Shown in pieces: positions 6,653 through 27,970 of a stretch of DNA of 45,561 nt (its first letter is position 1; each line of letters starts with the position of its first letter). Made by a program: the position numbers and the translations under genes. The DNA comes from Candidatus Ryanbacteria bacterium CG10_big_fil_rev_8_21_14_0_10_43_42 (GTDB lineage Bacteria; Patescibacteriota; Minisyncoccia; Ryanbacterales; 2-02-FULL-48-12). The notes beneath the pieces are model-generated. The model was not told where the DNA came from. It did not search any database and saw only the letters and a list, made by a program, of their open reading frames with translations. The DNA lies in NCBI GenBank assembly GCA_002793915.1, contig PFEF01000006.1:161368-206928 (forward strand). Direction: 5' to 3'.

Positions 6653-8986
6653 ATGTATATACGGACATACATACTATGGAGCATGGGCGTTCTTATATTA
6701 GGCGCTGGCATTGCGGCACTTCCCGTAATAGGTATTCAATATGTTGTAAAACCGGCTTCAGTGCTTTTTGATGCCGAAGCGCATGACGATACCGGCGTAG
6801 CTTCTTCGAAAGAAGATATCATCAAAATAGCCGATATATCTTTTATGGATGATCGGTCACAAAATACATACGCAACACGCACGCTTGATCCAACTCTCCT
6901 TGTGCCGCCGTCTGCGGGGCGGGCCGTTGTTGCCGATCTTTCCGAAATGATGATACGTGTTTTTGAAGACGGAACCGCCATACACGAATATCCCATTCGT
7001 TCAAAAGGACGTCCGGGCTCATTATGGGAAACACCCACCGGCGCATATACTATTAAAACAAAGGAGGAAAATCACTACTCTACAATAGGAAATGTTTGGA
7101 TGCCGCACAGTATGCAGTTTTTCGGCAATTTTTTCATTCACGGTTGGCCGGAGTACGCGAATGGTTCTCCGGTGCCGGAAGGGTTTTCCGGCGGATGTAT
7201 CCGTCTCTCGAAAGAAGATGCTGAAGCGTTGTTCAAAGAGATGGACATAGGCGTTCCGGTGCTTGTTATAAGCGGTACCGGCACTGGCATAGCGCCTGAT
7301 CATAATGAGAACACAAATACCGTTTTTTCCTATACCGGAACGGATTCATTTATGCCGCCGCCGTTTCTTTCCGCGCGCTCGGCTTTTGTTGCCGATCTTG
7401 AAAATGATTTTGTATTTTTTGAAAAAAATCCGGATGAGGTTCGCGCTATTGCTTCTTTATCCAAACTAATGACGGCACTTGTTTCGCTTGAGGCAATAAA
7501 CCAATTTAAAACGGTAACCATAACCAATGAAGATGTTGAAATTTATGGTGCCGCCGGAGGACTTAGTGAAGGAGATATATTCGAGGCAGGAGAGTTGTTG
7601 TGGCCTCTTTTACTGGCATCGTCTAACGATGCTTCCTACGCCATTGCGCGCACTATGGGGGAACATTGGTTTGTAAGTCTTATGAACGAAAAAGCAAAGA
7701 GTCTGGGTCTTACTCATACATCGTTTGAAGAGCCGTCCGGACTAAGTCCCGAAAACACATCAACGGTTATTGATCTGTTTCGCCTGACAAAGCATTTGTG
7801 GGAAGATAAACGATCTCTTCTTATTATGACCCAAGAAAGAAACCACGGTGCATGGCGCAATATTCATCCGTTTGCTTCAAAGGATTCATTTCTTGGGGGT
7901 AAAACGGGATATATTCCCGAGGCAAAACGAACAATCATAGCCACATTTTTAATTCCTTTTGGCGAATTTGAAGAACGTCCGGTAGCGGTTGTTCTTCTGG
8001 GATCGGACGATATTCGGTCTGACGTTGAACGACTTCGTTTATGGGTTAAAAACAATTTTTCTTATTCATACGAAAATGATACGCAGGATAATCAATTTGT
8101 TTTATATACGCCCGTAGATGACACACATAATAACGAATCCCTTTCTCTTCTCTTCGGCGGTGATGTTATGTTGGACAGAGGCATTGAAAATATTATAGAA
8201 GATCAAAGATATAACTGGATGTATCCTTTTGAACAGGTGGTTCAGGAAACACAACGTGCCGATCTTGCATTTGTAAATTTGGAAGGTCCGGTATCTGACG
8301 CGGGACAGGATAGAAAAAATCTGTATTCATTTCGTATGAATCCGGCAAGCATGAATGCTCTTTTAGGTGCGGGTATTGATGTTGTATCTCTTGCAAATAA
8401 TCACATAGGTGATTTTGGAAGAGAGGCACTGGAAGACACTATGCGTCGTCTGCATAGGGCTCAAATTGCATATACGGGAGCCGCATGGAACAGTACTGAA
8501 CTGCTTGAACCAACGATACGCATGGTGAAGGGGAGACGCATTGGTTTTCTGGCGTTTACTGATGTAGGTCCCGATTGGCTTTCTGCGGATGACGCTCTTT
8601 CTGGTATTGCCATTGCTTCGGCGACATATGTGGAAGATACCGTTCGACAAGCAAGTAAAAAGGTTGATATACTAGTGGTATCGTTCCATTTTGGAAATGA
8701 ATACGAAGCACGACCAACAAAAAGACAGCAGTTACTTGCTCGAACAGCCATTGATGCGGGAGCACGTATTATTATAGGGCATCATCCTCATACGGTTCAG
8801 TCCATTGAAGAATATCGAAATGGCGTTATCGCATACAGTTTGGGAAACTTTATATTCGATCAAAATTTTTCGGAAGAGACATCAGAAGGACTTCTACTTA
8901 ATGTAGAGCTTACTGGCAATGAAATTACAGCCGTAGTTCCGATACCTATCGGATTTTCGGATACCTTCCAGCCTTTTATTCGATAG
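6653..8986 (+). CDS. Three-domain envelope enzyme: L,D-transpeptidase + D,D-carboxypeptidase + CapA
   Basis: A single 777-residue frame carrying three enzyme domains outside the membrane. Residues 8-30 form an N-terminal anchor. Residues 90-207 are a YkuD L,D-transpeptidase with His163 and the SGGCIR motif (Cys182), which makes 3-3 peptidoglycan cross-links or attaches proteins. Residues 237-470 are a serine D-Ala-D-Ala carboxypeptidase (peptidase S11) with S268xxK271, S323-S-N and K417-T-G all present. Residues 496-777 are a CapA/PgsA metallophosphatase-like domain with GGDVML, NLEGP, ANNHIGD and HHPHTV. Each catalytic set looks intact. The carboxypeptidase makes the tetrapeptide on which L,D-transpeptidases act, so the first two may work in sequence. 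CapA proteins help make or attach poly-gamma-glutamate; its role here is unknown. It starts 2 bases after rpe. Confidence 0.85.
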   Translation: MYIRTYILWSMGVLILGAGIAALPVIGIQYVVKPASVLFDAEAHDDTGVASSKEDIIKIADISFMDDRSQNTYATRTLDPTLLVPPSAGRAVVADLSEMMIRVFEDGTAIHEYPIRSKGRPGSLWETPTGAYTIKTKEENHYSTIGNVWMPHSMQFFGNFFIHGWPEYANGSPVPEGFSGGCIRLSKEDAEALFKEMDIGVPVLVISGTGTGIAPDHNENTNTVFSYTGTDSFMPPPFLSARSAFVADLENDFVFFEKNPDEVRAIASLSKLMTALVSLEAINQFKTVTITNEDVEIYGAAGGLSEGDIFEAGELLWPLLLASSNDASYAIARTMGEHWFVSLMNEKAKSLGLTHTSFEEPSGLSPENTSTVIDLFRLTKHLWEDKRSLLIMTQERNHGAWRNIHPFASKDSFLGGKTGYIPEAKRTIIATFLIPFGEFEERPVAVVLLGSDDIRSDVERLRLWVKNNFSYSYENDTQDNQFVLYTPVDDTHNNESLSLLFGGDVMLDRGIENIIEDQRYNWMYPFEQVVQETQRADLAFVNLEGPVSDAGQDRKNLYSFRMNPASMNALLGAGIDVVSLANNHIGDFGREALEDTMRRLHRAQIAYTGAAWNSTELLEPTIRMVKGRRIGFLAFTDVGPDWLSADDALSGIAIASATYVEDTVRQASKKVDILVVSFHFGNEYEARPTKRQQLLARTAIDAGARIIIGHHPHTVQSIEEYRNGVIAYSLGNFIFDQNFSEETSEGLLLNVELTGNEITAVVPIPIGFSDTFQPFIR

Positions 8987-23972: not shown

Positions 23973-23994
23973 CGAGATTATGGGGAGATGTCTA

Positions 23995-24990
23995 ATGATC
24001 ACATGTGAACGGGTGAGTGAGGTTAACGAGGCATTCAGAGAGTATTTAACATTATTTCAAACACCGGTGTGGCTGAAATTCATAAAAAATACTCAAGGAG
24101 CAGATCCCGTTATAATCGCTCTTATGCAGGACGGGTGCATTGCCGGATACTTTATAGGGTGTATGGTAAAAAAATTTGGCATACGTATTCTTGGAAGTCC
24201 TTTTCCGGGCTGGACAACCGGTTATATGGGATTTTGCCTATCAAATGCCATATCGCCGGAAAAAGCTCTATTTGCTGTTACGGATTATGCATTCCATAAA
24301 CTTGGGTGTATGCATATAGAGATTATGGACAAGGACATAAACCTCTCGCAATTTTACGCTATTTCCAAAAAGTATCCTTTATCTCACAGGATATTTGGGA
24401 CGTTTGAGATCGACCTTACTCAATCGCCGGATATTCTTCTTGGAAAAATGAATCAGAATCGCCGGCGCAACTTGAAAGCGGCTAAAAAAAACGGCATAAC
24501 CATAGAAGAAGCACCTATGGACACGAGTTTTGTCCGGGATTATCACGATAACCTTATAGCTGTTTTCAAAAAACAGCACAGCACCCCCACATACGATGAA
24601 AAGCGTGTTAAAGCCTTGATTGATACTCTAGGTAGTTTCGAATTACTTCTATTGCTTAGGATATATAATAGGGATAGGGTATGTATTGCAACCGGTATAT
24701 TTCCGGCATGGAATTCCATTGCATACTTTTGGGGTGGCGCCAGTATTCCCGCATATAATTATCTACGGCCAAATGAATCCATGCATTGGTACGCTATGAT
24801 GTACTGGAAGACGCACGGCATGCGAATTTATAATATGGGTGGTGGCGGTGAATATAAGAAAAAGTACGGAGGGACGACAATTGAAACACCGTGGGTAAGA
24901 ATTTCACGCTATAAACCCATATTGTTTCTTCGTACGTACGCGGAGAAGCTTCATAAATCGTTATTAAAAATACCATACATCGCCGCGTAA
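23995..24990 (+). CDS. FemAB-like / GNAT acyltransferase
   Basis: A 331-residue protein of the Acetyltransf_6 group (FemAB, BioF2-like, CelD-like). The MNQNRRRNLKAAKKNG stretch near residues 145-160 and FWGGAS with the C-terminal YNMGGGGEYKKKYGG are typical of this double-GNAT fold. Relatives move amino-acyl or acyl groups onto peptidoglycan precursors or exopolysaccharide. I start at 23995 because GGGGAG at 23982-23987 lies 7 bases before it; the upstream ATG at 23980 overlaps that site. Together with the deacetylase it forms a two-gene unit closed by its own terminator. Confidence 0.72.
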   Translation: MITCERVSEVNEAFREYLTLFQTPVWLKFIKNTQGADPVIIALMQDGCIAGYFIGCMVKKFGIRILGSPFPGWTTGYMGFCLSNAISPEKALFAVTDYAFHKLGCMHIEIMDKDINLSQFYAISKKYPLSHRIFGTFEIDLTQSPDILLGKMNQNRRRNLKAAKKNGITIEEAPMDTSFVRDYHDNLIAVFKKQHSTPTYDEKRVKALIDTLGSFELLLLLRIYNRDRVCIATGIFPAWNSIAYFWGGASIPAYNYLRPNESMHWYAMMYWKTHGMRIYNMGGGGEYKKKYGGTTIETPWVRISRYKPILFLRTYAEKLHKSLLKIPYIAA

Positions 24991-25091: not shown

Positions 25092-26786
25092 ATGCAACTT
25101 GCCGATGATCTTATAGAAAAAGGTGTTTTAAAAACACCTCGTATTATCGATGCATTCCGTACCATAAAACGGCGGGATTTTATGCCGAATGATTTGCGTC
25201 CTCTTGCCGGTATAGATGAAGCTTTTCCCATAGGAAATGATCAAACCATCTCACAACCCTATACCGTAACTCTCATGCTTGAACTTTTAGACCCAAGACC
25301 CGGTGAAATTATCATGGATGTGGGGTACGGTTCCGGATGGCAAACAGCGCTTCTTGCTCATTGTGTGGGAAAGGAGGGGAAGGTACACGCTATTGAACGC
25401 ATAAAAAATCTTTGCATATTCGGCAAAAAAAATCTGGAAAATTATTCTTCTCATTGGGGAAAACAGACCGTACATCTGCACTGCAGAGATGCAAAAGACG
25501 GACTTCCTCTGGAGGCAAAACGATACGGCGGATTTGATAAAATCATCGCCGCCGCCGCCGCTCCTTCCGTTCCGCATAACTGGGAAAAACAACTCGCCGT
25601 TGGAGGAAAAATCGTCATGCCCATTGATCATTCTCTTTGGGTATTTACAAAAAAGAAAGACGGATCATTTAAAAAGGAGGAATATCCCGGATTTGCATTC
25701 GTTCCTCTCGTAACAGAAAAAACCATTCGCACATTACCTACGGGAAATATATTTTTAAACACAATCGCCGCTCTTCTTATGGCAGTGCTTGTCTTATTCG
25801 TGTATGGTATTTCTCCTCCCTCCGCCCCCTATCCGCAAGAAATTACCATCCCCGGTGGTTCTACCGCCCGTCAGGTTTCGCGCATACTGACAGAAAAGCA
25901 TATCGTGCGTTTCGAAAACGTATTCCTCTTGCATCTTTTCTTCCGGGGGGATTTGAGCCGTATTCAGGCGGGCGTGTATCTTTTCGAAAAACCACGGTCT
26001 TCATTGTCGGTTTCCCGTGTGCTGGTAAGTCCTCCGTTTCGGCGTATTTTAACCGTACGTGTCCCGGAAAGCTCCACACTGCGCGGTATTGCTCTTAGCT
26101 TGGAGGAAGCCGGTTTGTTTTCCCGGGAAGAATTTTGGCGCACGGCAGGCAGACCACCGGAAGATAACATGCTGGCGGATACCTATACTTCTCTTTCGCA
26201 TGTTTCCGATCTTGTAAAGCAGTTTTCCTTTTTGAACACAAAACCCCTGCAAGCAACTCTTGAAGGATATTTATTTCCCGATACGTACGATTTTTTTGAT
26301 GATGCCACACCACCGGAAATAACATTTAAAATGCTTCAAAATTTTGAAACACGTCTCCGCGAAGAAGGTTTATTTGAAGAGATAGAAGCACAAGGACGCA
26401 CGCTTCATGAGGTTCTTACGTTCGCATCTCTTCTTGAAAAAGAAGCCATTACCTATGAAGACAAACGCATTATTGCGGGAATCATTAACAACCGCTTACA
26501 GGCAAATATTCCGCTTCAGCTTGATGCATCCCTCATGTACGTTACCGGAAGAGGGAGCAGTCTTCTTACAAAAGACGATCTTGCCCTTAAATCTCCCTAT
26601 AATACCTATGTAATAAAAGGTCTTCCGGCAGGTCCCATAGCAAATCCGGGCATCGCCTCCATTAAAGCCGCTCTACACCCTGAAGAAACACCTTATTTTT
26701 ACTACCTTTCGGACAACAATCTTACCATACATTACAGTCGAACTTTTGAGGAACATAAACAAAAAAAAGCTTTATATATTCCCTGA
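25092..26786 (+). CDS. Fusion of protein-isoaspartate methyltransferase and MltG transglycosylase
   Basis: One 564-residue frame with two unrelated enzymes. Residues 1-212 are a PCMT-type methyltransferase that repairs isoaspartate in aged proteins using SAM: NDQTISQPYTV (49-59) and the SAM loop MDVGYGSGW (75-83) are clear. Residues 219-241 form a membrane helix. Residues 245-564 are the endolytic transglycosylase MltG (YceG), with GYLFPDTYDF and the catalytic Glu449 in ASLLEKEA. MltG cuts new glycan strands and sets their length. The predicted topology puts the methyltransferase inside and MltG outside. Both halves look intact. Ordinary MltG has only a short cytoplasmic tail, so the methyltransferase replaces that tail. 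mnmA follows 53 bases on. Confidence 0.87.
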   Translation: MQLADDLIEKGVLKTPRIIDAFRTIKRRDFMPNDLRPLAGIDEAFPIGNDQTISQPYTVTLMLELLDPRPGEIIMDVGYGSGWQTALLAHCVGKEGKVHAIERIKNLCIFGKKNLENYSSHWGKQTVHLHCRDAKDGLPLEAKRYGGFDKIIAAAAAPSVPHNWEKQLAVGGKIVMPIDHSLWVFTKKKDGSFKKEEYPGFAFVPLVTEKTIRTLPTGNIFLNTIAALLMAVLVLFVYGISPPSAPYPQEITIPGGSTARQVSRILTEKHIVRFENVFLLHLFFRGDLSRIQAGVYLFEKPRSSLSVSRVLVSPPFRRILTVRVPESSTLRGIALSLEEAGLFSREEFWRTAGRPPEDNMLADTYTSLSHVSDLVKQFSFLNTKPLQATLEGYLFPDTYDFFDDATPPEITFKMLQNFETRLREEGLFEEIEAQGRTLHEVLTFASLLEKEAITYEDKRIIAGIINNRLQANIPLQLDASLMYVTGRGSSLLTKDDLALKSPYNTYVIKGLPAGPIANPGIASIKAALHPEETPYFYYLSDNNLTIHYSRTFEEHKQKKALYIP

Positions 26787-26803: not shown

Positions 26804-26832
26804 TTGGAAATATATTTCTCACGTGATAGACT
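26804..26832 (+). promoter_or_regulatory. mnmA promoter, predicted leaderless
   Basis: TTGGAA (26804-26809), a 17-base spacer, TAGACT (26827-26832) with TG at 26824-26825. The gap to the ATG at 26840 is 7 bases. Confidence 0.6.
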
Positions 26833-26839
26833 GTCGACG

Positions 26840-27970
26840 ATGCATTATGGTAAAAAATCAAAAAAAGTATATGTAGCCATGAGCGGCGGCGTTGATTCTT
26901 CCGTAGCGGCTTTACTGCTTAAAAAGCAAGGATACGATGTCTACGGAGTATTCATGAAAGAATGGATACCACCCGATATAGTCTGTACATCCGCCGATGA
27001 TCGCATTATGGCATCCCGCGTAGCGGCTTTTTTAGGCATACCCTTTACCGTATGGGATTTTAGCGATGCGTATGAAAAAAAGGTGGCGCATTATATGCTT
27101 CTCGAATATAAAAAAGGACGCACGCCAAACCCTGATATTATGTGCAATAAAGAGATAAAATTTAAAATGTTTCTTAATCGCGCCCTTAAAGAAGGGGCGG
27201 ATTTCATAGCAACCGGACATTACATTAAAAAACGGAGAACAGAGGATAAAGAATTACAAAATTCCATCTATAGTCTTTTTGAAGCGGAGGATAAAAATAA
27301 AGATCAAACATATTTCCTCTGGACTCTTACGCAAAAAGAACTTATGCATAGTCTTTTTCCTATTGGGGAATACACGAAAAACACCGTACGCGCACTGGCG
27401 AAAAAAGCAAAATTGCCTTCATGGGACAAAAAAGATTCCCAAGGCGTATGTTTTGTAGGACAATTTGATTTCGCGGAATTTTTACGCATGCGTATACCGC
27501 AAAAACAAGGAGATGTGTTAAATGAAACCGGAAATATTATTGGCACGCATGACGGTACTGCGTTTTATACCATCGGTCAAAGACATGGTTTTAATATTTC
27601 AGTCGAAGAAGGAGGCATGGATAAAAAACCATTATATGTTTCGACAAAAGATATGAAACGCAACACCATAACCGTCGTTGAAAACCATAATTCATTGCTT
27701 GCAAAAAAAGAACTTACCGTATCCAATATAAACTGGATAACGGAAAAGCATCCCAAACTTCCGCTTTCATGTCTTGCGCGTATTCGCTACCGGCAACCCT
27801 TGCAGGACGCAACTCTACAAGTATTACATAAAGATAATACGGGGCAGAAAATTGAAAGCTATTATGTAACATTTAAAAAACCGCAAAAAGCCGTAACTCC
27901 CGGTCAATCAATCGTATTCTACGCAAACGGAGGAGAGATGATTGGTGGCGGTATTATTGCCGGCCTGTAA
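26840..27970 (+). CDS. mnmA: tRNA-specific 2-thiouridylase
   Basis: Adds sulfur to uridine 34 of the Lys, Glu and Gln tRNAs; the tRNA-Lys (TTT) at 42420 is a likely substrate. The ATP PP-loop is AMSGGVDSS (residues 13-21). The two catalytic cysteines are Cys102 in DIMCNKEIKF and Cys204 in SQGVCFVG. The 376 residues match the family. The start at 26840 is set by the promoter; an in-frame TTG at 26804 is part of the -35 box. Sulfur may come from the cysteine desulfurase at 16041. Confidence 0.93.
   Translation: MHYGKKSKKVYVAMSGGVDSSVAALLLKKQGYDVYGVFMKEWIPPDIVCTSADDRIMASRVAAFLGIPFTVWDFSDAYEKKVAHYMLLEYKKGRTPNPDIMCNKEIKFKMFLNRALKEGADFIATGHYIKKRRTEDKELQNSIYSLFEAEDKNKDQTYFLWTLTQKELMHSLFPIGEYTKNTVRALAKKAKLPSWDKKDSQGVCFVGQFDFAEFLRMRIPQKQGDVLNETGNIIGTHDGTAFYTIGQRHGFNISVEEGGMDKKPLYVSTKDMKRNTITVVENHNSLLAKKELTVSNINWITEKHPKLPLSCLARIRYRQPLQDATLQVLHKDNTGQKIESYYVTFKKPQKAVTPGQSIVFYANGGEMIGGGIIAGL

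Follow-up and report, generated by a model that had tools for sequence, protein, structure and literature searches.

We find that the genes for a PCMT-type methyltransferase (pcm) and for the transglycosylase MltG (mltG) are kept together as a conserved pair of closely spaced genes in a class of the Patescibacteria, and that in a number of these microorganisms the two genes are joined into a single reading frame. This recurring PCMT-MltG architecture is real. We consider it probable that, through the repeated fusion of a compact operon, an isoaspartate repair methyltransferase of the ordinary type has become tethered to an MltG that is likewise ordinary. No mention of the PCMT-MltG pair or of its fusion was found in the literature that we searched.

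Domain Architecture and Conserved Residues of the Fused Protein

The window analyzed here is a stretch of 45,561 nucleotides from Candidatus Ryanbacteria bacterium CG10_big_fil_rev_8_21_14_0_10_43_42. One of its open reading frames, uninterrupted over 564 codons, is laid out as follows:

25092..26786 (+), fused pcm-mltG gene, one open reading frame of 564 amino acids, predicted bitopic membrane protein
25095..25718 (+), PCMT domain, residues 2-209, cytoplasmic by predicted topology (Pfam; Foldseek match to 4o29)
25719..25748 (+), linker of about 10 amino acids, the TEKTIRTLPTGN region, with low pLDDT and net positive charge; no ATG, GTG or TTG codon
25749..25811 (+), membrane helix, residues 220-240, the anchor typical of MltG proteins (helix in the model; hydropathy 2.53)
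25842..26768 (+), MltG/YceG endolytic transglycosylase domain, residues 251-559, expected outside the membrane (Pfam; alignment to 4iiw and 2r1f)

In the Pfam search, residues 2-209 matched PF01135 (E 3.8e-45; 154.7 bits against a curated cut-off of 20.3 bits), covering positions 5-208 of the 210 in the PCMT model, and residues 251-559 matched PF02618 (YceG; E 8.3e-70; 235.8 against 32.4 bits). Among the NCBIfam models, that for the endolytic transglycosylase MltG (TIGR00247) was passed with 186.9 against 103.4 bits, and the PCMT equivalog cut-offs were missed (PRK00312.1, 154.2 against 188; pimt, 144.2 against 159.05). Since such cut-offs name close orthologues, we file the N-terminal half as a PCMT-domain protein, whose orthology to pcm and whose substrate identity are unproven at these scores.

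The AlphaFold model (mean pLDDT 85.6) displays a PCMT fold, a helix at residues 220-240 and an MltG fold; residues 204-221 are disordered, and a pTM of 0.55 renders the placement of the two halves relative to each other uncertain. Foldseek aligned the PCMT half with 4o29 (TM 0.89 on the target), 1jg1 and the E. coli structure 3lbf, and the MltG half with 4iiw (the MltG-like Lmo1499), 2r1f, 8yoa and 8yq7. Lys and Arg residues flank the helix solely on its PCMT side, and a topology with PCMT inside and MltG outside is expected from sequence and model. An earlier note, made from the DNA letters, had described a complete PCMT domain and a complete MltG domain in frame around a membrane helix with this same topology; Pfam, AlphaFold and Foldseek agree with that description, and the motifs QTISQPY and MDVGYGSGW that it quoted are both present.

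With known PCMT/PIMT enzymes (PF01135; E. coli Pcm 3lbf, P. furiosus 1jg1, P. aerophilum 4o29) the window protein shares the full-length match, the fold, and the QTISQP and SAM motifs. However, the known PCMTs are soluble, whereas this protein is fused to a membrane anchor and scores under the NCBI equivalog cut-offs. With MltG/YceG proteins (PF02618, TIGR00247; E. coli 2r1f, Listeria Lmo1499 4iiw) it has in common the full-length match, a single N-terminal anchor, and the EKE and C-terminal motifs, but it bears a 210-residue enzyme where a short cytoplasmic tail normally sits.

The PCMT half possesses the QTISQP motif with a catalytic-type Ser54 and the SAM motif DVGYGSGW. Residues T52, I53, S54, Q55 and P56, as well as G78, G80, S81 and G82, are invariant in all 12 fused proteins, and Ser54 is also kept in 159 of the 160 other PCMTs. 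Ser54 of the TISQP segment is presumably equivalent to human Ser60; Ser60 and His118 were the only PIMT active-site residues that could be mapped from the literature. A loss of activity has been reported for midge PIMTs in which Ser60 is replaced by Ala (PMC7565475). The residues of the PCMT active site are thus ordinary and give no sign of a new substrate, a possibility that the earlier note had raised. This conservation suggests that the PCMT half functions as PCMT enzymes normally do, although it does not prove the substrate.

In the MltG half, the motif SLLEKEA holds both Glu449 and Glu451 (EKE at 449-451), and the catalytic ExE motif is hence present. The earlier note had probably misassigned the catalytic glutamate to position 449: Glu451 is invariant in 140 of 140 collected MltG domains, whereas Glu449 is replaced by Gln in five of them, and in an alignment the solved protein 8yoa has Gln at the first motif position and Glu at the second. 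On this basis, Glu451 is more likely to be the catalytic residue. The E. coli MltG protein is inactivated by the E218Q substitution, and endolytic activity has been demonstrated for the E. coli and B. subtilis proteins (PMC8135044). The second motif glutamate would correspond to E. coli E218 if the 270-residue chain in 2r1f ends at the C-terminus of the 340-residue protein.

The two halves are conserved to different degrees. Within the family, identity amounts to 62-65% for the PCMT half versus 56-59% for the MltG half; beyond the family, the values are 48-55% versus 35-43%. The linker and helix are merely 8-26% identical between fused proteins. Conserved halves next to a variable linker and helix indicate selection on both enzymes and none on the joint between them.

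Recurrence of the Fusion and Conservation of the Gene Pair

The PCMT-YceG architecture, which the earlier note had proposed to look for in other Patescibacteria, is present in two other genera of the same family (L002, L003; 57% overall identity) and in nine further genomes of the class (G008, G010, G026, G058, G078, G210, G241, G257, G292). In the contig scan, matches were obtained with an alignment of fusions as the query, and none with a single protein. Named records among the relatives belong to the Patescibacteria, including Nealson-, Niyogi-, Moran-, Yonath- and Kaiserbacteria, and from these names we infer that the class is Paceibacteria. Since the fusion recurs in independent genomes, it reflects neither chance nor misassembly.

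To place the fusion in context, we took a census of both genes in 143 genomes of the class, nearly all of which are at least 90% complete. MltG was found in 134 of them (135 by an alternative tally). A complete PCMT is present in 74, each of which also has MltG. Counting as adjacent those genes with less than 700 bases between the end of the PCMT domain and the start of the MltG domain, we find the PCMT gene immediately before that of MltG in 47 of the 74 genomes with both, and seven of these 47 pairs are fused. In the remaining both-gene genomes, the two reside farther apart on the same contig (4) or on different contigs (23). Unfused adjacent pairs have the same strand and PCMT first, and they often overlap or are separated by a few bases. 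Elsewhere in the phylum, both genes were found in 27 genomes; they are adjacent in only 2 of these and fused in none (Fisher p ~3e-7 for 47/74 versus 2/27 adjacency); the census and this test rule out chance adjacency of pcm and mltG. Of the 134 class genomes carrying MltG, 60 have no PCMT, and in G003, a member of the same family as the window protein, the two genes are unlinked. Fused, adjacent, unlinked and PCMT-less states all occur among close relatives.

Two other candidates were rejected. Stop readthrough in adjacent pairs found no support, as pcm and mltG share the same frame in only 17 of 75 pairs, a proportion not above one third. The long open frames that precede MltG in G059, G073, G079, G121 and G546 were set aside as non-domain extensions or neighbouring genes.

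The best PCMT tree requires five to six changes of the fusion label, two of which are forced by strongly supported branches alone, and the best MltG tree requires ten. In the MltG tree, the G003 protein branches as the sister of the family's fused clade, and the PCMT of G003 groups elsewhere in the PCMT tree. Since the details differ between the two trees and many branches are weak, it is safe to say "more than once" but not to give an exact number; the fusion probably arose repeatedly, and fissions are also possible. In the PCMT tree, the PCMTs of Campylobacterota (L060-L085, e.g., L068, L072, L076; Sulfurovum, Sulfurospirillum and relatives) nest inside those of the Patescibacteria, a placement that may stem from horizontal transfer or from a binning error.

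Changing Neighbours and Alternative Fusion Partners

The following features bear on the surroundings of the pair and on fusions with other partners:

26804..27970 (+), window, mnmA (tRNA 2-thiouridylase), downstream neighbour of the fused gene (Pfam PF03054)
L159 1070-2725 (+) and L157 1817-3481 (-), phosphoribosyltransferase-MltG fusions (G120, G234), 67% mutual identity
L154 1847-3010 (+), PCMT-DJ-1/PfpI fusion (G342), which unites two enzymes of protein-repair type

An mnmA gene also adjoins MltG in G003 and in other families (L214; L229, L043; recognised by reading). Otherwise, the flanks vary by lineage: def upstream together with rplJ-rplL downstream, lon upstream, UPF0047/YjbQ upstream, or mnmA downstream (deformylase, UPF0047 and the MnmA of the window were identified by Pfam, the others by reading). 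Although the flanking genes change between lineages, the pcm-mltG pair persists, and this persistence may point to a functional link closer than co-expression; as an argument it is limited, the persistence of other gene pairs providing no yardstick here. The gene directly upstream of the fused frame (23980-24990, +) yields Acetyltransf_6/FemAB-type matches; FemAB proteins can attach amino acids to wall precursors.

In G120 and G234, the MltG anchor is preceded in the same reading frame by a phosphoribosyltransferase domain (PF00156), and the fused gene follows a Lon-like gene. These proteins of the same class resemble the window protein in joining a cytoplasmic enzyme to MltG, but the enzyme differs, and G120 is without a full-length PCMT match. 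The PCMT-MltG fusion of G292 is likewise located behind a Lon-like gene, and the cytoplasmic partner has therefore apparently been swapped. The presence of a phosphoribosyltransferase in the equivalent place suggests that the cytoplasmic tail of MltG tolerates any upstream gene. In G085, a DJ-1/PfpI gene adjoins the pcm-mltG pair. Taken with the PCMT-DJ-1/PfpI protein of G342, the parallel fusions in G120 and G234 indicate a general joining of operon neighbours; such neighbours seem to fuse readily, with the short cytoplasmic end of MltG as a natural acceptor.

Possible Roles of the Tethered Methyltransferase

According to the explanation that we favour, the stop codon between pcm and mltG would have been lost in several lineages, giving rise to a single-pass membrane protein. 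Its N-terminal PCMT would bind SAM in the cytoplasm and, like free PCMT, most likely methylate L-isoaspartyl residues of damaged proteins, as its conserved site implies. The signal anchor of MltG itself would hold the PCMT at the membrane, and the C-terminal MltG would cleave nascent glycan strands outside. Methylation and strand cutting probably run independently; selection would maintain the pairing, for the sake of co-expression and perhaps of a constant 1:1 ratio or a position close to the membrane, and not a signal passing through the helix. In the source genome, the sole PCMT and the sole MltG are those of the fused protein. The tethered domain must therefore perform any repair that is done with PCMT, and it is not a specialised extra copy that exists alongside a free PCMT.

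The earlier note had suggested that strand release at the wall is coupled to a cytoplasmic signal and that the methyltransferase has a new acceptor. We found support for neither proposal. All 12 fused proteins have an unremarkable PCMT site, in many relatives the genes are unfused or unlinked or PCMT is missing, and the phosphoribosyltransferase-MltG fusions weigh against both a cross-membrane signal and a new methyl acceptor.

The best surviving alternative, which we nevertheless hold to be unlikely, is that the PCMT half serves the wall by methylating the carboxyl groups of wall-synthesis proteins or of a precursor with an iso-linked residue, thereby coupling methylation to strand cutting. 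As a conjecture, the substrate could be the free alpha-carboxyl of D-isoglutamate in lipid II, a group that is amidated elsewhere by MurT/GatD. A wall is presumably made, since the source genome encodes two FtsW/RodA-type proteins. The MurT family was not found in this genome, in keeping with such a substrate, but MurT is missing from most control genomes too. That every PCMT-bearing genome of the 143-genome sample also carries MltG would fit a wall role; however, MltG is near-universal in the class anyway, and 60 of its 134 carriers do without PCMT. Pairing despite changing flanks in 47 of 74 genomes and the repeated fusion speak for a closer tie, against which stand the ordinary PCMT site, the unlinked genes of G003 and the phosphoribosyltransferase in the equivalent place in G120 and G234. 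That carboxyl methylation is functionally tied to wall growth, with PCMT targeting a wall-synthesis protein or the D-isoglutamate of lipid II and MltG acting at the same site, appears to us distinctly doubtful.

It is also improbable that PCMT and MltG end up as separate proteins through translation or proteolysis, which would make the fused frame functionally meaningless. The linker is short, variable and poorly predicted, and those of some fused relatives contain in-frame GTG or TTG codons. In the window protein, however, we found no ATG, GTG or TTG codon between the end of the PCMT domain and the helix, nor in the first half of the helix, and a start within the helix would cut away part of the anchor. 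An internal start producing a separate MltG, which the earlier note had named as counter-evidence to a fusion, is therefore unlikely.

Very little speaks for a catalytically silent PCMT domain that acts as a scaffold for binding partners. Foldseek did reveal PCMT-fold chains in large complexes, namely in the respiratory complex I structure 8qby and in the CRL5-PCMTD1 ligase 9oma, but each of the 12 fused proteins retains every SAM-loop and substrate-side residue that was examined, and the PCMT domain evolves more slowly than MltG. An assembly or frameshift artefact that merged two genes can practically be dismissed: separate genes with an intervening stop, which had been put forward as a sign of such an artefact, are indeed frequent in related genomes, yet the same architecture occurs in independent genomes of several families, including the 57% identical versions in two genera.

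The pcm-mltG pair is retained in almost two thirds of those class genomes that possess both genes and has fused several times; it offers a lead on how protein repair and wall growth are organised in tiny, mostly uncultured bacteria. If the link is functional, it would constitute a new use of isoaspartate-type methylation; if it is not, the case illustrates clearly how genes within an operon fuse in genomes of reduced size.

Two further loci in the window were noted. Another unusual wall-related fusion (6653-8986, +; 777 amino acids) combines a YkuD L,D-transpeptidase, a Peptidase_S11 D,D-carboxypeptidase and a capsule-synthesis-type PGA_cap domain. A few kilobases upstream of the fused pcm-mltG gene, the segment 18240-22177 (+) encodes an HtrA-type trypsin-like protease with PDZ followed by a Clp-type AAA+ ATPase, both of which are genes of protein quality control.
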